Assembly (NCBI GenBank): GCA_027603945.1
Contig: JADIIU010000147.1
Span: 1 to 29,673, forward strand
From: Terramyces sp. JEL0728
Lineage: Eukaryota > Chytridiomycota > Chytridiomycetes > Rhizophydiales > Terramycetaceae
Direction: 5' to 3'
Length of the DNA: 29,673 nt
Below, piece after piece: positions 9,939 through 29,673 of this stretch. A model generated the notes under the pieces. It saw only the letters and a list, made by a program, of their open reading frames with translations. It searched no databases and was not told the DNA's origin. Within the stretch, counting starts at the first letter, position 1, and every line of letters begins with the position of its first letter. Both the position numbers and the translations under genes were made by a program.

Positions 9939-10426
9939 TTTTGCCAAGTTTTTTTTTGGTTCTTGAAATAATTCAAAGGAAATTGGTACGGCAATGCTCA
10001 ATTGATTTATAATAAATTGCACTGCCAGTTAAAGGCGGCCATGGCTTGATTCCTAGTTTCCAGAGATTTCAAAAAGTAGGAACGAAATACCAGTAGCGGT
10101 ACAACAATCATGTTGATTTTGGTTCCATCCTAACACCCCAAGCTCAAGTTGGTTTCTATCTTTTCGCAATCCTATTTCAACATGAAATTGATTGGCCAGA
10201 TATTTTCGGAATTTTTTTTTATTTCAACCCTAACCCTACAAAAAATCAAAAAAACAAATGAAACAAGCGGTTCTTCCCTTTTAAAAAACAAAGGTAGGTA
10301 GATTACAGTTCAACAGGATGATACACTATATTCTGACACCTCTTGTTTGATACAACCTTCACACGTTGTAGATGCACGCAACCTCGTATCTGATTGAAAT
10401 TCATTATTTGCAGACTAATTATAGAA
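9939..10426. promoter_or_regulatory. Divergent promoter region, eIF3e and eL6
   Basis: About 490 bp between two divergent translation genes. It holds a run of T and then the telomere-like box at 10226-10239. A CTAATTATAG immediately before the eL6 ATG resembles an intron 3' end and could mark a 5'-UTR intron, but the nearest upstream GTA lies 40 nt away. Confidence 0.55.
10226..10239. promoter_or_regulatory. Telomere-type box upstream of eL6
   Basis: AACCCTAACCCTAC contains two CCCTAA/TTAGGG units about 190 bp before the eL6 start. TTAGGG-binding Myb-type factors (Tbf1 family) are known ribosomal-protein gene regulators in several fungi, and related teloboxes occur in plant ribosomal-protein promoters. 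A similar role is inferred. Confidence 0.5.
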
Positions 10427-13308: not shown

Positions 13309-14295
13309 ATGTCAAATATCAGCTATTCAAATGCAGAGTGTTTCAAGCAATATTATATCGAATACAACACCGGAGTAGCATACGATTACGGCCAACTAGT
13401 GTGCTATTTATTTACGATATTTGGGCTGTGTTCATCGCTGGTTATCATTAAAAAGTATTTCAACACCAACTCCGGATTCGGGTATCTTATACTTGCTATG
13501 GGAATCAGCGATTTCTTTGTTTCGCTATCGTGGTTTGCAGCGAATCTGATTGACAATTCGTTACAATACAACCACTGCATTTCAAATACCAGTTCAACAA
13601 GACTTGAAGGATACTTGATTACTAATGCGTACCATATTAACGATGTTTTCCTGTTGTCATCTGCGTTTCTCGGGTTAGCCGTATCTTACATTGCAGTCTC
13701 TGTTCTTTACTTGAATGCGATTACCAGCAACTTGCAGTGGAAGAGGCTTGTGTCTGTTTGCTTTGGTATCCCTGTAATTTATTGGATTTGTATCACAGCC
13801 GTGTACAGTGTAAATTTCAGTATGCGTGGCAATACAAACCAAATGGGAATTGCGTTATTGAAATCTCAATGGGACATTTTCTACAATATTTTATTGACAG
13901 TCATTGCATGTATCGTAGTTGTTCTTTACATAGTATTCTATATCCTAACTACTATTGGCATGAACTCTAAACATCTTTGCTCTTCAAAAATCGTAATGTT
14001 GAATGTTATTCAAGCCATTACTATTTCAAATATGATTTGCTGGGTTCCAATGATTGTCTTTTGTTCTACTACTGCTGCTTGGTATATGGCGGGGTTTAAT
14101 GAAAGTGACCCTGTGTACTACTTTGGGCTGTATATATACAACGCTACAGCGTCTTGTAAAGGCTTGTATCATTTGATTTCACTTTATATTTGTGAAAGAT
14201 ACAATGATTGTAAAGATAGAGCAGAAAAAGATGTTGATACCATCCAATGGTCAGATGATAAACTGAATTACAGTTTGAACGACAACACATTGTAA
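13309..14295 (+). CDS. Seven-transmembrane receptor-like protein 1
   Basis: Single exon, 328 residues, first of five paralogues. It has a short extracellular N-terminus with Cys (NAECF), seven hydrophobic spans, and the family signatures SGFGYLILAMGISD (TM2), an HCISNTSS loop with likely N-glycosylation, MLNVIQAITISNMICWVPMIV (TM6) and KGLYHLISLYICER (TM7 into the tail). The CWVP in TM6 resembles the CWxP switch of class A receptors, but there is no DRY after TM3 and no NPxxY. The tail ends TIQW...NDNTL. A lineage-specific G-protein-coupled receptor is the best guess; ligand unknown. No intron occurs where paralogues 4 and 5 have one. Confidence 0.75.
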   Translation: MSNISYSNAECFKQYYIEYNTGVAYDYGQLVCYLFTIFGLCSSLVIIKKYFNTNSGFGYLILAMGISDFFVSLSWFAANLIDNSLQYNHCISNTSSTRLEGYLITNAYHINDVFLLSSAFLGLAVSYIAVSVLYLNAITSNLQWKRLVSVCFGIPVIYWICITAVYSVNFSMRGNTNQMGIALLKSQWDIFYNILLTVIACIVVVLYIVFYILTTIGMNSKHLCSSKIVMLNVIQAITISNMICWVPMIVFCSTTAAWYMAGFNESDPVYYFGLYIYNATASCKGLYHLISLYICERYNDCKDRAEKDVDTIQWSDDKLNYSLNDNTL

Positions 14296-14373
14296 ATATA
14301 ATAAACTAATCAGAATTTTATTTACAATGTAGTAAAAAGTCACTTGTATTCCAACTTAACAGTTGATTGTTGC

Positions 14374-14382
14374 GGCTGGACC
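14374..14382 (+). promoter_or_regulatory. GGCTGGACC motif before receptor 2
   Basis: GGCTGGACC followed by GGGTACT, 48 bp before the ATG at 14430. The same 9-mer occurs before receptor 5 and between receptors 3 and 4. Confidence 0.45.
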
Positions 14383-14429
14383 GGGTACTGTTTGGACAAC
14401 TTTTTCGGAATGAAAAAACTCTGAAATAA

Positions 14430-15374
14430 ATGGAACAGAGTCAATGCTTCCAAGACGACATCCTACTATCATACGACGACTATTCAACAGTAGTAGGATA
14501 CATCCTAACCGCACTCGGAATATTTGGTTCCATAATGATTATACTTACAAAAAACAGGTATTTTAGTAAAGGCTCGGAATTTGGGTATTTGGTATTATCA
14601 ATTGGAATACTGGATTTGTTAACGTCGCTTGCACAGTTATCTGGGTCGCTAACGAGTGCTGTGCTGCAGTACGACCATTGTGTCGGCAACACCACTTCTT
14701 CAATGACTGAAAATTATTATATTTCACAAGTGTACAGACTCAGTGATGTATTTCTGTTTGCATCGGGGAATCTAGGGGTGGCAGTTTCGTTTATCGCTTA
14801 TTCTATCGCATGCAGAAATGGTATCAATCATATCTTGAATTGGAAGAAGCTGTTGATGGTGTGTATAGTATTGTCGCTTATAGTTTACCTTGGGTTCGCA
14901 ATTTACTATGACAGGATGTATGGAACAGATACAGGAGCAGACTGGACAATCTATTATTATATGTACGATGTATACGCTAGCATCCTTGTGCTTTTATTTC
15001 TATTCTTTTATCTATCGACGCACTTGAATTTGTATTCAAAGAAATCAAGCAATTCGCCAAAGCTTTTAATGCTTACTATGATTCAAGCAGTTACAATATC
15101 AAATCTGGTATGCTGGCTACCAATGATCCTCAGCTACACATTTACAATACTCTTATCACAGTCATCTATAGTTTACAACCAAAAGTTTTCTTCTACTGTT
15201 GCTTATATTGCATCCGCAACCATTTATGCCAAAGGGTTTTATCATATATGTGCTCTTTATTTTGCCGAATTATTTTGGAAACAGAAACCGGTGGATAAAC
15301 AAGAGGACACTATAAAGTGGGATTTTACTCTATCTAAAGCAGAAAGGATATCAGAATTAGAAGAAACACTATAA
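14430..15374 (+). CDS. Seven-transmembrane receptor-like protein 2
   Basis: Single exon, 314 residues, paralogue of the other four. N-terminal Cys (QSQCF), TM2 SEFGYLVLSIGILDLLTS, glycosylatable loop HCVGNTTSS, TM3 NLGVAVSFIAYSIACRNG, TM6 MLTMIQAVTISNLVCWLPMI with CWLP, TM7 AKGFYHICALYFAE, and a tail with TIKW ending LEETL. It lacks introns at both positions used by its relatives. Only 134 bp separate it from receptor 1 on the same strand, and its stop is 86 bp from the stop of the convergent receptor 3. Confidence 0.75.
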   Translation: MEQSQCFQDDILLSYDDYSTVVGYILTALGIFGSIMIILTKNRYFSKGSEFGYLVLSIGILDLLTSLAQLSGSLTSAVLQYDHCVGNTTSSMTENYYISQVYRLSDVFLFASGNLGVAVSFIAYSIACRNGINHILNWKKLLMVCIVLSLIVYLGFAIYYDRMYGTDTGADWTIYYYMYDVYASILVLLFLFFYLSTHLNLYSKKSSNSPKLLMLTMIQAVTISNLVCWLPMILSYTFTILLSQSSIVYNQKFSSTVAYIASATIYAKGFYHICALYFAELFWKQKPVDKQEDTIKWDFTLSKAERISELEETL

Positions 15375-15460
15375 ACTGTTTCTATACCTATTAATATATT
15401 TCATGTATAATCTTATTATATATCCAGTCTTGTCCCACTACAAACAGTTCAGAACAATCC

Positions 15461-16490
15461 TCATGGTTCATTTTTTGAATCTAAATTTGTAGCTGCCCAT
15501 TGAATACTCTCAATTACCTCCAATTCCTTTTCGCTCGTCTTTGTACTCGAATTAGTCTGTAAATTCCTCGTCAATCTTTCCGAGCAAAACAGTGCTAGCA
15601 CATGATAAAACCCTTTTAGATAAATAAAAACATTCGCAATATACATTATTGTGAATTGGGCAGTCATGTTCATCTGCAACGGTGTAATTACATTCTCCCA
15701 TCCATCAAACAAATTCGCATAGTTGATTATCATTGCAATCCAACAAATGAGATTCGACAGTGTAATTGCTTGTACCGTGTTCAATAAAAGTATTTCTGAA
15801 CTTGTCCACTTTGTCTTTTTAGTGTCCTTGAAAAACAGCAAACTGATGAAAAATATTCCAAACAAAAGGACTAGGATTGATGCGTATGCCATGTAAAGAC
15901 CTAGATATAATCCGTGCCTTGTTAGCAAATCGTTACCATTTGGCTAGAATCCTAGATTCCGAGTGCATCATGGCATACTGTCTGGCAAAATGAAAAATTG
16001 TCGTCAAAATAATCCAGATCATAGCTGAAACAAATAGACTTTGGCCAACGAGTTTCTTCCACTTGATTGATGATGCCGATGCATTCAAAAACACAACTGC
16101 AAACGCAATATAGCAAATTGCCAAACTAATATTCCCTGAACCAAACAGAAATATATCACAAAAGTACTGCAAATGGTAGGAAAGTTCAATCATGAAATCC
16201 GATTCATCCGAATACCCAACAACGCAGGTTTTATAAAACGTTGCACTGCTGTACAGGTTTGCGACAAGCCAAGTGATCGAAGTCAGCAAATCGCAACAAC
16301 CCAGTGCAAGCACAAGAAATCCGAATCCAGTGTCTGTTTTGTAATACAGTCGTCGAGTTGTTATTATCAGCAGTGCACCGACTATTCCAAAGAGTGTGAA
16401 AATGTAACTAACAAGAGTTCCGTAGTCATTGTCGTAATTCTCTATTGTGTATCCTTTTACGTAAGCTTCTACGAAACAGGTGCTGTTCAT
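15461..16490 (-). CDS. Seven-transmembrane receptor-like protein 3
   Basis: Exons 16490-15937 and 15917-15461 give 336 residues; the 19-nt intron GTAACGATTTGCTAACAAG (15918-15936) splits a TGG tryptophan codon. It is the only receptor of the five on the minus strand. TM2 is TGFGFLVLALGCCDLLTS, TM6 has LLNTVQAITLSNLICWIAMI (CWIA instead of CWxP) and TM7 KGFYHVLALFCSER. The tail has SIQW but ends KNEP, unlike the TL ending of the other four. It is divergent from receptor 4. Confidence 0.75.
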
Positions 16491-16528
16491 CTATTGTAGA
16501 AACTTTTTTTGTGCTTTTTCGAAATAAG

Positions 16529-16537
16529 GGCTGGACC
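16529..16537 (+). promoter_or_regulatory. GGCTGGACC motif between receptors 3 and 4
   Basis: Lies in the 242-bp divergent region, 39 bp upstream of the receptor 3 ATG and about 195 bp upstream of receptor 4. It is followed by AGGTTGAGC, so similarity to the other two copies ends after the 9-mer and its next few bases. Confidence 0.4.
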
Positions 16538-16732
16538 AGGTTGAGCATTTTACACAATATTTCAACTCTTTTTTACTACTTTTTTTTAAATTGCAGCAAA
16601 GGATTTCAAACTTTAAAGGGCACCTGCCTTCTCTCAGCATCTTCAACTATCTGAGTCTGCTGTGTTACCGCAGTTCACAGCTCGGATCCTATACTGCCCC
16701 GAATTGAGAGCGTGGCCAAATTTTATGAAAAA

Positions 16733-17754
16733 ATGAATAAATGCCTAGTAAACTCTTATTTCAAATCCATACCTTTATATGACTACGACTATGGCGTAGC
16801 GGTCAACTACTGGTTCGTCCTGCTAGGGATTATTGGCTCAGTAACAATGATAATTGTACATTTTATTAATTGTAGAGCAGGAAAAAGTACTTTAGGTCTC
16901 ATTCTGGCTTTGGATACTTGATCTTACTACTTGCGATACTAGATTTAATGACTGAAGTTAGTTTTTTTATAGGTAGCCTTGCACAGAGCTCCATTAATTA
17001 TTACCTTTGTGTGAACCCAAACACGCCGTACAATACCACTCTGACTGATAATTTTATAGGAGGGAATTTGGTCCACGTAAGCGATATTTTCTTGTTGGCC
17101 TCAGGGAATGTCGGACTGGCGGTTGCTTTCATTGCGTTTTCAGTTGTTTGCTTGAACGGACTCGCTTCCAACATGAAATGGAAGAGTGTTGGGTCCGCAT
17201 GCGTTGCAGTGTCAGTATTAGTATACAGTATCTGTGCAGTATTTTATGCAATCAATTATAAACAGCAGATTAACGATCCAGATGATTTCATTCAGCCGCA
17301 AGCTGCCTGGCAGTATATTTATTATTACACTTATGGGATTTACGCTGCTGTACTAGTAATTCTATTCATAGTGTTTTATCTGTGCACTTTTTACCAGCTG
17401 CAGATCATCAAAGTTGAATACGGACCGACAAAACATCTCATGCTGAATATGATTCAAGCTGTTACGATTTCCAATTTGGTTTCTTGGATTCCATATATAG
17501 TTGGCAATTACTTGAATATCAAACAAACAGATGAAATGCTCAATCCGGCTGGATTTTACGAGACTGATTTTACATACTATTTTACGCTGTATCTATGGAG
17601 TTCAACAGTGTATTCTAAAGGGCTCTATCATTTGATAGCCCTCTATCTTTCTGAACGGCTATACTCTCAGCCCAGCAGCACGGAATCTTCAATCAAGATG
17701 GAGACCATACTCTGGCAAACTACTGTTGATACTGTGGATGGTAATACCCTTTGA
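16733..17754 (+). CDS. Seven-transmembrane receptor-like protein 4
   Basis: Exons 16733-16855 and 16876-17754 give 333 residues; the 20-nt intron GTACATTTTATTAATTGTAG lies after TM1. Splicing creates SRKKYFRSHSGFGYLILL, matching the SGFGYLI block of the paralogues, whereas the unspliced frame ends at TGA. Loop residues LCVNPNTPYNTT carry glycosylation sites, TM6 is MLNMIQAVTISNLVSWIPYI (SWIP) and TM7 SKGLYHLIALYLSER. The tail has TILW and ends DGNTL. I chose the ATG at 16733, just before the conserved Cys-containing N-terminus; an upstream in-frame GTG is not used. Confidence 0.75.
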
Positions 17755-17917
17755 TTGTAATATATTTGCTTTACAAACATTTTTCCGGCTTTATTTTGGA
17801 GAAAAGAATTCCCGAATTTACAAGTAAGACTGTCGGAACCAGAAGAGGCAAACCTACGCTTATCCTCTTTGCTTTGTGAACTATATTTTTGTGTTCGAGG
17901 TATGGTGTCTTTTGTAT

Positions 17918-17926
17918 GGCTGGACC
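17918..17926 (+). promoter_or_regulatory. GGCTGGACC motif before receptor 5
   Basis: GGCTGGACC followed by GGTTACT, 67 bp before the ATG at 17994. It differs from the copy before receptor 2 by one base over 16 bp. Confidence 0.45.
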
Positions 17927-17993
17927 GGTTACTCAGGGAACTGTAGAGCAGAGACCTTCGCAGTTTGAAGCTTGACAACTCAAAAAAGTTACC

Positions 17994-19087
17994 ATGAACA
18001 CTACCTGCTTCAAAACCGCATTCATACAGAACGGGTTGGGGGATCAATACGACTATGTCGAACTAGTCACTTACATATTCACACTATTTGGAGTAATAGG
18101 ATCAATACTGATTATTACAGTAACAGCGAATTAACAATTAGACTAGGAAAAACTATTTTAAAACCAATTCCGGATTTGGATATATGATTTTGGCGATTGG
18201 GATTTGCGATTTATTGACTGCATCAAGCACAATCATTTCAACTTTTGCTGCTGGATGCATTGATTACACAAATTGCGTTAATGGAGCGAGTAGTAGTATA
18301 GTTGAATCAGTCAGTAAGAAACAGATGGCAAACCTTAGTGATCCATTCATTACAGCTTCTGGATTGCTTGGAATGACTGCGTCGTACATTGCTTTCACTG
18401 TGGTGCACATGAACAGCACAATCAGTAATGTAAAATGGAAGAAATTAATAACTGGATGTATTTCAGTGTCGTTCTTGGTCTGGGGGGTGACAGTAATAGT
18501 CTATTCGTTCCTGGAAGGTTCCTACATCAGCTCTTCATCAGATGACGACAAAACTGGCCTTCATCATGCATGGTAATACTCTCATTAACCTCTGGCAAAA
18601 GTTTTACAATTCCGTCTACATAATAATCGCATCTACAATAGTGATTTCCCTTTCAATCTTTCTCTTTTTCACAATGAGGGGATTAAAGAAGCCCCAAACA
18701 GAGATGAACGGCCCAAAAGCACTAATGCTGAATATGATTCAAGCGATTACTGTTGCAAATTTGGTTTGCTGGATTCCAATGATCTACGACTACAGTTTCC
18801 AACTTTACAGAATGTACCACAAGATTGGGCTCTATGATGATAATAATAACGAAACTGGCGACCCTTTGAAACTGCTGGCATATTACGCTCCACTATACCT
18901 TTTTGACGCGACTGTTGCCGCCAAAGGAATGTACCACATCATTGCATTATACCTGTCACAGCAATGTACCGTGGTCGACAATAATAAAACCGCTGCATCG
19001 ATCGAATTGGAAACTATCCATTGGTCGTCATCGAAACAAGAGAAACCAGATTCTACATTCAAAGTGGACGAAGACACGCTTAGGTAA
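17994..19087 (+). CDS. Seven-transmembrane receptor-like protein 5
   Basis: Exons 17994-18119, 18142-18572 and 18595-19087 give 349 residues. Intron 1 (22 nt) sits at the same place and phase as in receptor 4 and restores TRKNYFKTNSGFGYM. Intron 2 (22 nt, 18573-18594) splits the same TGG codon as the receptor 3 intron and joins LHHAW to QKFYNSVYIII, but its last two bases are TG instead of AG. TM6 is MLNMIQAITVANLVCWIPMI and TM7 AKGMYHIIALYLSQ; the tail has TIHW and ends DEDTLR. Either the TG acceptor is used, or there is a sequencing error, or the gene is damaged; everything else looks intact. Confidence 0.7.
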
Positions 19088-25292: not shown

Positions 25293-25312
25293 ACTAGTAT
25301 GCAATGTTTATT
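25288..25312. terminator. Paired poly(A) signals containing two stop codons
   Basis: CAA-TAA-ACT on + (AATAAA 25288-25293) and GAA-TAA-ACA on - (plus-strand TTTATT 25307-25312) each embed the TAA stop in AATAAA. The convergent coding regions are 15 bp apart. Confidence 0.6.
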
Positions 25313-28030
25313 CCAAAAGGGGGGACATTTCGCCCTTTTTTTTCTTCCTTTCCCTTAATTTCTTCTCCTTCTTGATGACTTTCTTTACTGAAGTCTTGGT
25401 CTCACTCTTTTTTTTAGCCGGCAAAGCATTAGTCTTTTTACGAACACCGGTTTGTGCGTATTTGAGCATCATCTTTTGCTCCTTTGTCTTTGGCTTGAAC
25501 TCGTCTTCAATCATAGTGTCAGGAGTAAGTTTGGAATAAAATTCAGACAGGAGCTTGATTTGGTTTGTTGGATCCACTGGCTGCCAGCTCTCCAGCGGTG
25601 GTATCTTTACTTCAGTCTCCAAATCCGAGGCTGCTACTGGACCAGTACTACATTAAATACATTTACTTGATTAATGCTCGTTTCACCCTGGCTGTCAACG
25701 GCTTGTCCGCTTTCCTATTCCATAGTTCCATCGGAATACTGCTAACATCAAGCCCGATTTCTTTAAAGTTCAAAAAATCAATTCCTGCATCTTCAAGGAA
25801 ATTACCACTATAGAAATTCTCTTGGTGGTCTTCAAATTCTATATCATCCTGTTGGACTTGTCCAAATTCATTCCATGCGTATTCAAGTTTTCTTGATAAT
25901 TCGTGTAATTTTTTACCGTATCTAATTACATCATGGTTAATGTAAGTTTGTAAATCCATAGGGTCTTTAACGCCTAATTCGAGTAACACATGATATAATA
26001 TTTCCTGAAATTAGGTTTGGTTACTTCCTCTTGCATTATAGCACCATACTTGTCGATAAATATTCTCATTGTTCTTCCAGCGGTATATAGTAGTTGCATT
26101 AATATATCTGCAAACGTGGACAGTGCTTGATCCGTTGCAGAGTCAAACCCAATGTGAGACAAGATATATCCAAGTGATTTCCGTATTAATTGAAATGATG
26201 AGTTCAAGTTTAGCACTGGTGGAGGCAATTCCTTTTCTTCCCACAAGGGAACATAGGGTGATGATTTAGGTATATTTAATTGTTGCTCGTTAATATTTTG
26301 TTTGGCCAGTACTTTGGAATACACATCCTTTATATTCTTCATTTCTTGGATATTTTTCGTCATTGCCAAATTTAGCTTGCTATTTGCATCAAAGTTGAAA
26401 CTAGAATATTCAGATAATGTAGGCAGTGGTGGATGAGGCAGTTTGCTGTGTTAATACAGAGTACTTTTCATTAGTTTCTGCAGACAAAAAGTCTTTGATT
26501 TCAAAGTTGTACTTTGGTGCGTGCACACTCGATTGCGGGAATGAAGAAACAAAGTTGTACGTTTCTGGTAAAAAGTATGATAATTCTGGTATTTCAGGCT
26601 CTATTCCTTGCAGCAAAGTAGACCTAATTTTTGCCTTTTCATTATATTTTTGCAGATTATCGGCATATTTGGCCATATCCTGCTCTGTCCTTATTAATGC
26701 AGGCCAGTCTCTGAAGCGCAGTTGTTTGTTTAGCTCTTTTTGAGTCTGCATTAAATAATAGTACCAAAACCATTGCTCTATCACTGCTAGTAATTTGTTT
26801 CCATTTTTTTGTTATTAAATTAGGATCGTAAATGTACTCTTGTTGCAATTGATTATTGACGCCGTCTTCGTGTTCTTCCTCGTCTTCCTTTTCTTCTTTT
26901 TCCTCTTCCTCTTCTTTTTCGTCTTTTACACTTTCCATGTCAATGTCCTCCTTTTCCGACACTTTAGATTTTCCTTCGTCGTCTGAATTAATAAGATGAA
27001 CCTGTATCATCATCCGATTCCTTATTGGACTGAATAGATATTTCAGGTATTTTCTTTAACAGATCCAGTGTTTTTCTTCTCATGGCAAAAGCATGTTGTC
27101 TGTATATACTTTCTGGCATTGTATTATAGGTGAGACAGTTTGTCCAAATCAGTTCTAAATCGGCAGCAAAATCTTCCTTGCTGTTGTATTGTAAACTTTT
27201 CAGTTTCTTTGTCATTGTCGTTAAATCCATTGGATTCTTGATAATATCGAAATAATTTGGAGCTTCCCTTTTTTGGACTGGTCTTAGAAAAGGCAATGAA
27301 TGTTCCTGGATAAGTATTAAATACTGCGTGATTCTTCAGTCCTGTCAGCACTTTTTCAAATGCTTCATACAGCTGCTCCTGGCCCACTCGGTCGTCGTTG
27401 GCCCACTTTGATTTGGAAGGGATTGAATCCACAACAATCTTTTGAACTGCCTTTACATTATCAACCATTTCCAAAAGGTATTTCATTCCAGGAGGTATCA
27501 CTACTGGCTTTTCTACTTTTTCAACGACTTTGGGCTTGACTTGTTTGAAAATAGATATTTTGGGAATAAGAGATTCATCCTGTTCCAAAGTATAATACTG
27601 ATCGTCAAACGGGATCAAATTGGACAAGTCCTGCTCTTCTAATGAATTAATAGCTTGAATAGGATTCATTGACAATTCCGTAAGCATTAGTCTAATCTTT
27701 AGTGAAATATTAAAAAGTGAATGTTCCTTTTCCTGATCCAGCAAATCTAAGTAAGTTGTAATTTACCAAAGTTAATCTAAATTGTACCTAGAGTAAATGA
27801 AACGCATTACCTATGAATTAGGGCTATATCGTACCTAGGGATTAGGCAATAAACACCTAGCATTAGCATTTGTTACCAATCAATTCCTTTTTAGACTTTG
27901 GATTTTCAATAAACGCTTTGAATATCTTTTGTGTTTTTGTAATGTATTCAAATACTCTTGCTTCTTCTCCGTTTAAATACATGTTATATCCTTTACTTTT
28001 TATCAAATCCAGGGCGATCTGATAATCCAT
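25308..28030 (-). CDS. SPT7: SAGA complex subunit Spt7, 8 exons
   Basis: Exons 28030-27877, 27746-27325, 27305-27002, 26982-26765, 26745-26465, 26445-26025, 26004-25667 and 25647-25308 give 825 residues. Six introns are 19-20 nt; the first interruption is the 130-nt composite at 27747-27876. The bromodomain lies near residues 178-290 (FLRPVQKREAPNYFDIIKNPMDL, LIWTNCLTYN, HAFAMRRKTLDLLKKIPEI), an acidic Glu-run follows, and a histone fold lies near 540-595 (SLGYILSHIGFDSATDQALSTFADIL...TMRIFIDKYG). This order is that of fungal Spt7, which scaffolds the SAGA histone acetyltransferase coactivator and pairs with a TAF10-type histone fold. The tail is very Lys-rich. One donor is GTTCAT rather than GTA (intron 26983-27001). 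Confidence 0.9.
27747..27876 (-). other. Composite intron: six mini-intron units in tandem
   Basis: This 130-nt interruption of SPT7 divides on the minus strand into six abutting units: 27876-27857 (20), 27856-27835 (22), 27834-27811 (24), 27810-27788 (23), 27787-27767 (21) and 27766-27747 (20). Each begins with GT (GTAA, GTGT, GTAC, GTAA, GTAC, GTAA). Each has a branch-like CTAAT, TTTAC, TTAAC or CTTAC close to its 3' end. Five end in AG; the fifth ends in TG. Removing the whole joins KKELI to DLLDQEKE in frame. I see no exon sequence between units. Confidence 0.7.
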
Positions 28031-28256: not shown

Positions 28257-28971
28257 TTACCAAAATTTTAATTTACTAAGCATACTCTTTGGTTCTTCGG
28301 ATTGTTGTTCTTCAGAAGTAACAACCATTATGACATCTTGTTGTTCGGTAACAATTTCCTTGACGACAGGTTCTGGTTAACAATAAATTACCTGCAAGTA
28401 AGCTCTCTCTAGATGGTGGTTTGACGAGCATGATTTCCTTTTCATCATGTAAAAACGTTTCAGTTTCGATATCTAATAATTAAAGAAAAGAACCTTTGAA
28501 AGAATCGTTGATGACTTGTTCCAGATCCTTTTGAATTGATTCAAGTTGATCCTGGGTATCTGCTATTTCCACTGCATCATGAAACTCTTCTATTTCTGGG
28601 ACAACAACGCTTGTTTCTATTACTTTTACAGCTAGGCTTTGTTGATGTTCTTTTTCGAAATCTTGGCTGATTTCCCTGGCATTTTCGTCTTCATAATCAA
28701 TTGATTCTTCAGATTCCACAACCTCTTTATCACTGGTAGATTCTTGTACATCATTTCCCGTTTCAGGCACAATCTCGACAGTTTCTTTAATTATAGTGGT
28801 GTGTGTAACTTTATGTACTTTTGATTCATTTGTGACACTGGCATTCGCAGAAACATTCAAACCTTCTGCAGTATCTTCAGATGTTTCTTCGACTACGGTT
28901 TCTGTGACTGTTTCTTCGACAACAGTTTCTTGAACAGTTTCTTCAACAACAGTTTCTTCGACAACAGATTC
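28257..28971 (-). CDS. Acidic E/V/T-rich protein, 3' part, 3 exons seen
   Basis: Exons 28971(or further)-28494, 28472-28392 and 28372-28257 share one frame. Introns are 21 nt (28473-28493, donor GTTCTT) and 19 nt (GTAATTTATTGTTAACCAG). The right part encodes near-repeats of VVEETV/VQETV, then an acidic stretch (DYEDENAREISQDFEKE) and a tail ending KSMLSKLKFW. No ATG is found; the frame meets a TAA at 28972-28974 at the border of the complex repeat, so the 5' end is missing, spliced from further right, or lost in the repeat. Function unknown; composition suggests an intrinsically disordered or coiled protein. AATAAA directly follows the stop. Confidence 0.6.
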
Positions 28972-28975
28972 TTAC

Positions 28976-29673
28976 AGTTTAACAGTTTCTTGTCTTCGGT
29001 TTCCAGTTGTTGATCTTCGCAGCTTCTTCCCAGTTGTTAGTTTTTCTTGTGTTAACTCTCTTCGGTTTCTGTTAACAACTGAACTGTCTGTTAACTCCAG
29101 TTGTTGATGTTTCTCTTCGGTTTCTGTTAACAACTGAACTGTCTGTTAACTCCAGTTGTTGATCTTCGGTTTCCAGTTGTTAGTTTTTCTTGTCTTCGCT
29201 TCTTCAACAGCAGCTTCTTGAACAGCTTCTTCGACAACAGTTGTTGATGTTAACTCCAGTTGTTGATCTTCGCAGCTTCTTCCCAGTTGTTAGTTTTTCT
29301 TGTCTTCGGTTTCTGTTAACTCTCTTCGGTTTCTGTTAACAACTGAACTGTCTGTTAACTCCAGTTGTTGATCTTCGGTTTCCAGTTGTTAGTTTTTCTT
29401 GTGTTTCTTGAACAGCTTCTTCAACAACAGCTTCTTCAACAGCAGCTTCTTGAACAGCTTCTTCGACAACAGTTGTTGATGTTAACTCCAGTTGTTGATC
29501 TTCGCAGCTTCTTCCCAGTTGTTAGTTTTTCTTGTGTTTCTCTTCGGTTAACAACTGAACTGTCTGTTAACTCCAGTTGTTGATGTTTCTCTTCGGTTTC
29601 TGTTAACAACTGAACTGTCTGTTAACTCCAGTTGTTGATCTTCGGTTTCCAGTTGTTAGTTTTTCTTGTGTTT
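28976..29673. repeat. Complex interspersed minisatellite at window edge
   Basis: About 700 bp built from a few 10-40-bp modules in changing order: AACTGAACTGTCTGTTAACT (five copies, each followed by CCAGTTGTTGAT), CAGTTGTTAGTTTTTCTTGT (six copies), and CTTCTTCGACAACAG or CTTCTTCAACAGCAG stretches that on the minus strand encode VVEEAVQEA-like runs. AACAACTG and CAGTTGTT within the first module can pair as an 8-bp stem. Open frames shift between modules, so it is not one continuous coding repeat. It may be true repeat structure or a misassembly of a repetitive exon. Confidence 0.8.

Follow-up and report, generated by a model that had tools for sequence, protein, structure and literature searches.

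Introner elements multiply introns within a genome as dispersed similar copies, and recursive splicing clears introns in segments that are kilobases in size. At the ratchet points of recursive splicing, described in Drosophila and human, acceptor and donor are juxtaposed, which corresponds to a zero-nucleotide exon, and the segments are removed consecutively (PMC8605326, parts consulted). In fungi complex interruptions named stwintrons require consecutive splicing reactions; according to the consulted parts of the source they are nested, i.e. the inner intron interrupts a splice signal of its host intron and has to be removed first (PMC9024468). For AGGT tandem duplication (Rogers model) an example comes from fission yeast, where SPOG_01682 carries a 24-bp repeat with one intron across four copies (PMC4974935, parts consulted). 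Finally, ultra-short introns are found in chlorarachniophyte nucleomorphs (18–21 nt), mikrocytids (16–17 nt) and heterotrich ciliates (15–16 nt), and in the consulted parts of this source no mention of stacked introns was found (PMC10245619).

Here, we analyze a window of 29,673 nt, a contig of Terramyces sp. JEL0728 (Chytridiomycota), a soil chytrid fungus, in which the gene of an SPT7 homologue is interrupted by 130 nt. We regard it as probable that this interruption is a tandem array of mini-introns with zero-length exons that grew by duplication, is cleared by consecutive splicing and is one of many in the genome.

The nearest described phenomena are recursive splicing, stwintrons and AGGT duplication. 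As in recursive splicing, Terramyces arrays have AG|GT inside one interruption (four of five junctions in SPT7 and 140 elsewhere), and by sequence test each array segment contains splice signals, those of SPT7 units 2–5 being weak. In contrast with recursive splicing in long introns the segments comprise about 20 nt, each is an intron of full size, and whole arrays span 39–175 nt. The earlier note on this DNA had set the array apart from nested stwintrons, rightly so: the SPT7 units abut, each with its own donor and branch-like motif, none interrupts another, any order of removal would work, and five of the six end in AG. With AGGT duplication, as covered in the consulted parts of the source, the arrays share tandem AGGT-bearing units that create GT and AG at their borders; there, however, exonic sequence becomes one intron, whereas a Terramyces unit is a complete intron with a branch motif, the copies diverge and the phenomenon extends to dozens of genes. 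Like the ultra-short systems Terramyces has a narrow range of tiny intron lengths with conserved motifs, but its introns of 18–24 nt are accompanied by arrays and 3-nt exons, a difference that again holds for the parts of the source consulted. Unlike introners, units of different arrays are dissimilar (0.2% of 1000 pairs with at least 0.8 identity) and similar copies are adjacent. The earlier note knew of no described counterpart, and none is described among the literature matches listed, as judged from titles and abstract openings. A search for Terramyces together with introns returned a classification review only, and for JEL0728 nothing was found.

The interrupted SPT7 gene

Both a Bromodomain and a Bromo_TP domain, by which this class is recognized, are found in the product of the host gene. 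The gene and its ordinary introns, the latter given by the decoder and the spliced gene model, are located as follows:

25308..28030, minus strand: SPT7 homologue (Bromodomain and Bromo_TP), 825 aa once the array and six ordinary introns are removed
27306..27324, minus strand: ordinary intron, 19 nt
26983..27001, minus strand: ordinary intron, 19 nt
26746..26764, minus strand: ordinary intron, 19 nt
26446..26464, minus strand: ordinary intron, 19 nt
26005..26024, minus strand: ordinary intron, 20 nt
25648..25666, minus strand: ordinary intron, 19 nt

The earlier note had placed the interruption correctly. Removal of the 130 nt (27876 down to 27747, minus strand, phase 1) restores the frame and a conserved protein, and the resulting 825-aa product does not differ from the SPT7 protein deposited for Terramyces (P0121). 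The division into six consecutive units of 20–24 nt, all starting with GT, was reproduced as well. In the list below the scores are those of an intron model, with percentiles relative to 310 ordinary introns of the same genome:

27747..27876, minus strand: whole array, six intron-like units, 130 nt, phase 1 (G|AT, Asp), product identical to P0121
27857..27876, minus strand: unit 1, 20 nt, GTAACA..CTAAT..CTAG, score 10.57, percentile 0.87
27835..27856, minus strand: unit 2, 22 nt, GTGTTT..CTAAT..CCTAG, TAG|GT on both sides, score 4.32, percentile 0.04
27811..27834, minus strand: unit 3, 24 nt, GTACGA..CTAAT..CATAG, TAG|GT on both sides, score 2.82, percentile 0.01
27788..27810, minus strand: unit 4, 23 nt, GTAATG..TTTAC..CTAG, TAG|GT on both sides, score 5.06, percentile 0.07
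27767..27787, minus strand: unit 5, 21 nt, GTACAA..TTAAC..TTTG, ending in TG instead of AG, score 2.89, percentile 0.01
27747..27766, minus strand: unit 6, 20 nt, GTAAAT..CTTAC..TTAG, score 8.25, percentile 0.46

Units 1 and 6 score well, whereas units 2–5 are weak (percentiles 0.01–0.07), and no pair of units exceeds a similarity of 0.62. A branch-like motif before each unit end and AG|GT at all boundaries, as read in the earlier note, are present in part. YTRAY lies close to the end of units 1, 2, 3 and 5, but units 4 (TTTAC) and 6 (CTTAC) possess only the weaker YTNAY; four of the five junctions read TAG|GT, but that between units 5 and 6, overlooked before, is TTG|GT. Because of this junction the 130 nt have no parse into units of 16–27 nt that all end in AG, and the last two units may therefore leave as a single 41-nt intron, the form into which the decoder merges them. 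A 10-nt exon within unit 5 (GTACAATTTAG removed, ATTAACTTTG kept) was rejected since it breaks the frame and results in a stop. The array had also been called the only long interruption. It is real, but one decoder run proposed further interruptions, the lengths in the window being 105, 373, 203, 131, 248 and 119 nt; the 119-nt intron is the SPT7 array itself, parsed wrongly, and the other long ones are taken, by eye, for gene-border artefacts.

The spacing of AG|GT was compared with shuffled sequence, which did not reproduce it. A pattern of three spaced TAGGT matches the window at two overlapping places but occurs in none of 100 shuffles, the stretch of units 1–4 could not be parsed in any of 20000 shuffles with the ends kept, and at least four AGGT within 130 nt occurred in 6 of 5000 shuffles. 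An accidental spacing of AG and GT within AT-rich DNA, or a broken gene, would be in line with just four of five junctions fitting, yet both the shuffles and the recurrence of arrays in conserved genes whose flanking frames are intact refute this reading, to which we assign practically no probability.

Arrays in the Terramyces genome

A genome-wide search for AG|GT-linked arrays, as proposed in the earlier note, reveals that the SPT7 array is not unique. There are 53 further zero-exon arrays with 200 units (two to eight each), 52 of them obtained via pattern scans with targeted decoding and one via an unselected sample. Their decoded junctions are AG|GT in 140 and AG|GC in seven cases, AG being required by the decoder. 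Outside the window four decoded units are longer than 24 nt; those of 48 and 34 nt can also be divided at AG|GT, and the other two have 25 nt and 37 nt (L061, a decoder proposal that stands alone). On the four C25 matches of the three-TAGGT pattern (L059) and the C60 one-junction matches (L079) the decoder found no array.

Raw pattern counts prove little, since matches read backwards are about as frequent as forward ones or more so: 43 versus 55 for the three-TAGGT pattern, 36 versus 30 and 53 versus 44 for the one-junction patterns and, with spacers of 3, 1 and 2 nt, 24 versus 23, 21 versus 5 and 32 versus 9. The exception is the stricter two-junction pattern with 42 matches forward and 8 backwards. 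The weight of the case is carried by branch motifs, spacer comparison and homology.

The host genes include those of the conserved proteins PP2A, proteasome alpha-6, UBE2G1, MsrB and TOP1. Once the array is removed, a conserved protein is restored in PP2A (alignment ungapped), in UBE2G1 and MsrB (no gap at the junction) and in proteasome alpha-6 (junction compared by eye), and in TOP1 an additional 21-nt unit appears as a 7-residue insert. The deposited MsrB protein equals the outcome of removing units 1 and 3 singly with unit 2 retained as seven residues, which are absent from Boothiomyces proteins; it thus appears to contain an entire intron unit as protein sequence, an example of how gene models of genomes with such arrays can be wrong. 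The phosphatidylinositol-synthase-like protein of L064 gave no match at 1e-5 in PDB, and a plasmid tblastn yielded no match.

Inner units have kept their signals. Of 81 distinct TAGGT-spaced units from genome-wide matches, 54 have YTRAY shortly before their end, compared with a mean of 5.5 and a maximum of 13 in interior shuffles, and the underlying pattern imposed no branch requirement. Mean branch scores are 2.25 for non-last units (n = 122) and 2.09 for middle units (n = 70), and mean donor scores 0.65 for non-first (n = 119) and 0.54 for middle units (n = 70), all somewhat inflated as the decoder chooses good parses and demands AG ends. The corresponding branch and donor means are 2.68 and 1.03 in 310 ordinary introns and −4.19 and −1.38 in 3000 random GT..AG segments. 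As the inner motifs are near ordinary strength and far above chance, the inner units are probably used in splicing.

That introns of this genome are near 20 nt, as the earlier note supposed, is borne out by the decoder: 310 of 318 ordinary introns have 18–24 nt when the permitted maximum is 400 nt, and 323 of 326 when it is 49 nt. The eight longer ones measure 29 (L013), 50 (L020), 119, 131 and 248 (window), 169 (L019), 196 (L014) and 284 nt (L022), those of 29, 169 and 284 nt being retained in a second run; most decoder introns above 24 nt are taken, by eye, for gene-border or frame artefacts. Slu7 and Prp18 are both present in the genome, therefore a length limit would not be explained by a lost second-step factor.

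These data bear on whether the SPT7 interruption is one ordinary long intron, the first GT pairing with the last AG, all 130 nt leaving at once and the inner AG|GT being relics of growth. The removed sum would be identical, the deposited SPT7 protein is the result of one 130-nt removal, unit 5 lacks AG, units 2–5 are weak and a few longer introns are among the proposals of the decoder (judged by eye). Nevertheless, donors and branches near ordinary strength inside diverged arrays, as well as branch motifs in two thirds of the TAGGT-bounded units, would not be expected if unused, and almost all decoded introns stay within 18–24 nt even where 400 nt are allowed, so that we consider a single long intron unlikely.

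Spacer lengths and probable tandem duplication

In one pattern family spacers of 0, 1, 2 and 3 nt gave 30, 5, 9 and 23 matches, of which 15, 1, 0 and 11 show YTRAY in the second unit. The 3-nt pattern, intended as negative control, revealed a second type of array with 3-nt exons. Array loci contain 178 spacers no longer than 12 nt, of which 130 have 0 nt, 37 have 3, ten have 6 and one has 4 nt. Hence in 177 of 178 cases the added exonic sequence keeps the frame, as in intron gain by tandem duplication, with the counts for 0 and 3 nt biased upward by the selection of loci with these very patterns. The decoder is unable to place a 1-nt exon following a phase-1 intron, and one match with a 1-nt spacer has a branch motif.

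At six loci near-identical unit pairs (at least 0.8 identity) occur. This level is reached by 11.8% of 127 adjacent pairs but by only 0.1% of 1000 random intron pairs. Outside the six loci the mean identity of adjacent units is 0.516 (n = 96) versus 0.501 for units of different arrays, and therefore duplication is directly evident for a minority of arrays only. Taken together, the spacers of 0, 3 and 6 nt and the near-identical units point to tandem duplication in register as the way in which arrays grow, although in most of them similar units are no longer seen; for diverged arrays, including that of SPT7, duplication would be the origin by extension. On these grounds the proposal of the earlier note that a long insertion was forced to become a stack of removable units is less likely than duplication. 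The lack of excess similarity outside the six loci would also agree with independent insertion, i.e. unrelated mini-introns placed side by side without duplication, as might happen through reverse splicing at a junction already present. But insertion into exons predicts spacers of 1, 2, 4 and 5 nt as frequent as those of 3 and 6 nt, and the former are rare or missing; nor are near-identical neighbours explained, which makes this origin quite unlikely.

Removal of the arrays and biological meaning

Each complete unit would represent one splicing substrate, mostly of 19–24 nt, with a GT or sometimes GC donor, usually a TAG end and a branch hexamer that begins mostly 10–11 nt before this end. Removal of any unit would leave its neighbours intact and therefore an array could be cleared in any order; both the stepwise removal and the order of units are deduced from sequence. 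Such consecutive splicing at AG|GT points would be recursive splicing at the smallest scale. The ratchet-point geometry claimed in the earlier note is supported in its zero-exon anatomy and broadened to the whole genome, but does not extend to SPT7 junction 5 with its TG|GT. Units 1–4 of SPT7 fit a unit-wise removal, and units 5 and 6 probably exit together as 41 nt, unless TG serves as the acceptor of unit 5. This junction, the low scores of units 2–5 and the introns of 29–284 nt proposed by the decoder speak against a strictly unit-wise form.

Alternatively, whichever donor and acceptor pair first may be used, with single units and fused blocks both leaving and the array tolerated because all paths give the same mRNA. 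All complete units are independent of order and the end of the SPT7 array requires either TG as acceptor or a step of 41 nt; fused blocks, however, are rare, with only the four decoded units above 24 nt outside the window. We see this mixed use as a tentative possibility that overlaps with the explanation preferred here, i.e. the consecutive splicing of units.

For the growth of arrays we suggest that an intron together with 0, 3 or 6 exonic nucleotides is duplicated in register with the reading frame unaffected. Such a new copy would leave no trace in the protein, being spliceable on its own, and duplicated units would afterwards diverge under selection that keeps them removable. We lean towards the view that in Terramyces and its relative Boothiomyces introns of about 20 nt act like satellite DNA, duplicating head to tail in register until an array may count eight units or more, with 0-, 3- or 6-nt exons, and that a spliceosome adapted to some 20 nt clears these arrays in successive events.

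Should the units of an array be removed one at a time, there would be no need for a minimum exon length and recursive splicing would be independent of giant introns. Plain tandem duplication would then multiply introns and leave the protein untouched, a testable route of intron gain, and the arrays would provide a natural assay of how the spliceosome measures intron length. The findings suggest that introns can proliferate in the manner of tandem repeats and that introns standing end to end may be cut out one after another.

Ordinary introns and the array in SPT7

The assembly of the chytrid Terramyces sp. JEL0728 (Rhizophydiales, Terramycetaceae) comprises 15.0 Mb in 231 contigs, one of which (C147, 29673 bases) is the complete window. 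A frame-based count over 230 kb (window plus 200 kb) gives an intron length peak at 19-22 nt. Our small gene decoder went through three rounds of training, on codon use and on the introns it had itself called, and returned 318 introns, 310 of them with 18-24 nt (mode 20); the remaining eight (29 to 284 nt) are candidate calls by the decoder only. With GC donors permitted and a maximum length of 49, 323 of 326 introns have 18-24 nt, the exceptions being introns of 29 and 36 nt and a 41-nt block in SPT7. Ordinary introns show a GTAATT-like donor, the branch motif [CT]TAA[CT], with the branch hexamer starting mostly 10-11 nt from the 3' end, and usually a terminal TAG. Slu7 and Prp18 are both found in the genome, thus a loss of second-step splicing factors is not obvious. 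Ahead of the eL6 start codon the decoder places a 131-nt intron (10294-10424), which may belong to an intron-containing 5' leader or be an artefact. Similar genes for multi-pass membrane proteins, GPCR-like by eye, lie clustered on both strands of the window (13309-19087); a Pfam scan of one member (13309-14295) gave no match. Low-complexity tandem repeats (28882-29673, periods 12-55) run up to the contig end and may explain why the sequence breaks off there.

The SPT7 model with seven interruptions yields an 825-residue product with Bromodomain and Bromo_TP that exactly matches the deposited Terramyces protein, which serves as a check of the decoder for one gene. Its long interruption is composed as follows.

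Units of the SPT7 array (27876-27747, minus strand)
u1, first unit, minus strand: GTAACAAATGCTAATGCTAG, good intron by model
u2, second unit, minus strand: GTGTTTATTGCCTAATCCCTAG, weak by model
u3, third unit, minus strand: GTACGATATAGCCCTAATTCATAG, weak by model
u4, fourth unit, minus strand: GTAATGCGTTTCATTTACTCTAG, weak by model
u5, fifth unit, minus strand: GTACAATTTAGATTAACTTTG, weak by model
u6, sixth unit, minus strand: GTAAATTACAACTTACTTAG, good intron by model

The earlier note had all unit boundaries reading AG/GT; this holds for four of the five junctions (TAG/GT) and fails at the fifth (TTG/GT). As u5 lacks its own AG at full length, SPT7 needs a working 41-nt intron or a TG acceptor. 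The low scores of u2-u5 (intron-model percentiles 0.01-0.07) are due to length, to the branch motif or its distance, or to the absence of an AG. Chance fails as an explanation of the array: none of 20000 shuffles of the u1-u4 stretch gave a zero-exon parse (units abutting without exon), and the six-unit parse with any 3' end allowed reaches 33.9, the best of 3000 shuffles (51 parsable) -13.4. A three-TAGGT pattern has two overlapping matches within the window and none in 100 shuffles.

Recurrence in conserved genes

Whole-genome pattern scans returned many similar junction ladders. Forward and backward-read patterns gave mixed raw counts in four scans (55 vs 43, 42 vs 8, 30 vs 36 and 44 vs 53), and therefore the branch motif inside TAGGT-bordered units was checked instead; it lies near the end of 54 of 81 distinct units, compared with a mean of 5.5 and a maximum of 13 for shuffled interiors (2000 rounds). 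From these scans, the first of which had no branch-motif requirement, 55 places were chosen by hand, overlapping matches being merged and matches without a branch-like second unit excluded by eye. Altogether 51 loci were fetched, including control places with 3-nt spacers, and 48 were analyzed after dropping three near-identical second copies. Three pairs of loci (L051/L052, L065/L066 and L069/L070) differ by 0.5-1.8%, share their arrays and numbers of units, and are either haplotypes kept separate in the assembly or recent duplicates.

The decoder found at least one zero-exon array in 42 of the 48 loci; in four others the introns are stacked with exons of 3 or 6 nt between them, and the last two lack an array. 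Arrays of this kind thus do exist elsewhere: besides SPT7 there are 52 arrays with 179 units for GT donors and 53 with 200 units if GC donors are permitted, both totals including the single array (L018) of an unselected 200 kb with 289 introns. Extrapolation from this one gives a rough guess of near a hundred arrays per genome. Array sizes (2 to 8 units) are lower bounds because the decoder overlooked a third TOP1 unit and some arrays continue beyond the decoded end.

Host genes are conserved, and predicted excision of whole arrays restores their proteins. The PP2A catalytic subunit (five units, 109 nt) aligns ungapped with a PP2A chain across the junction, and the alignments of UBE2G1 (two units) and MsrB (two arrays of three units each) are free of gaps at their junctions. 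In proteasome alpha-6 (contig C30, 130418 bases; four units, three identical) the junction residues match Globomyces by eye. The TOP1 product retains seven surplus residues, fitting one additional 21-nt unit in the DNA.

Spacers and duplication

In one pattern family with 0, 1, 2 or 3 nt between CTAA..TAG and GTA..TAG there were 30, 5, 9 and 23 matches, with YTRAY in the second unit of 15, 1, 0 and 11, respectively. Spacers of up to 12 nt in the fetched loci measured 0 nt (130 times), 3 nt (37), 6 nt (10) and 4 nt (once), counts that are biased at 0 and 3 by the selection of loci and affected by the decoder's inability to set a 1-nt exon behind a phase-1 intron. Multiples of three are expected if an intron is duplicated in tandem, either alone or together with complete codons, but not if introns are inserted independently. 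Duplication is seen directly at six loci (L032, L039, L040, L042, L047 and L075) where neighbouring units are near-identical: identity of at least 0.8 occurs in 11.8% of 127 adjacent pairs vs 0.1% of 1000 random intron pairs. At the remaining loci, to which SPT7 belongs, adjacent units show no excess (mean 0.516, n=96, vs 0.501 between arrays).

GT begins the exon downstream of 22 of 53 arrays, as against 5.2% of 310 ordinary introns; AG ends the exon upstream of 24 of 53, as against 28%. The GT excess partly reflects overlooked further units; in the proteasome gene it is true exon. GT..GT or AG..AG microhomology may have aided duplication. GC donors, searched as GCA, occur in seven units (six beginning GCAA), all after the first of an array (L031, L032, L042, L044, L053 and L065).

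Three poly-proline coding loci, L060 (C106:24500-26300), L061 (C106:1400-2300) and L062 (C17:67500-68300), carry many 19-23-nt introns separated by 3-nt exons, mostly 'acc'; in L060, which presumably resembles a formin FH1 region, the decoder set 38 introns and 22 such exons in 1.8 kb. L063 (C38:50700-51400) encodes an acidic, non-proline protein with 3- or 6-nt exons between introns.

Inner units and known systems

The units are stacked, recur, keep their signals and fit frame and homology. If an array left as a single intron, only its first donor and last branch would matter. Mean branch scores are 2.25 for non-last units (n=122), 2.68 for ordinary introns (n=310) and -4.19 for random GT..AG segments (n=3000), and mean donor scores 0.65 for non-first units (n=119), 1.03 and -1.38; middle units by themselves reach 2.09 and 0.54 (n=70), all these values being read with the decoder's preference for good parses. 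The deficit against ordinary introns may reflect relaxed selection. Judged from sequence, single units are probably removed consecutively at AG/GT, in any order: each would be excised singly, one after another, the order being free because every excision leaves neighbouring units complete. Longer steps may also occur.

The deposited MsrB protein, set against the DNA (L046, 300-790), lends independent support to a putative use of inner units. In the first array its sequence corresponds to excision of units 1 (22 nt) and 3 (20 nt) with unit 2 retained as IHNSKLG, absent from both Boothiomyces MsrB proteins; the second fits removal of unit 1 and read-through to a stop within unit 2. It thus seems that deposited MsrB includes an intron unit translated into seven residues and is truncated inside another. 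Boothiomyces sp. JEL0866 MsrB has seven extra residues (FILFDDR) at the same place, back-translatable to a 21-nt unit with TTGAC preceding TAG, and five extra residues (VFGTNV for I) lie precisely at the array site in SPT7 of Boothiomyces macroporosus, which suggests introns at both places in this related genus.

Nucleomorphs, mikrocytids and ciliates are already known to have tiny introns as such (PMC10245619). Recursive splicing supplies the principle for stacked units (PMC8605326), stwintrons a precedent for complex interruptions in fungi (PMC9024468) and the AGGT duplication model one for array growth (PMC4974935). The titles and abstract openings of the literature matches listed describe no stacked mini-introns. 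The Terramyces arrays therefore extend known principles, the stacked mini-introns themselves being apparently new. Other deposited gene models of this genome may carry errors like those in MsrB, and if RNA shows stepwise clearing, there would be a case for greater novelty of the arrays.
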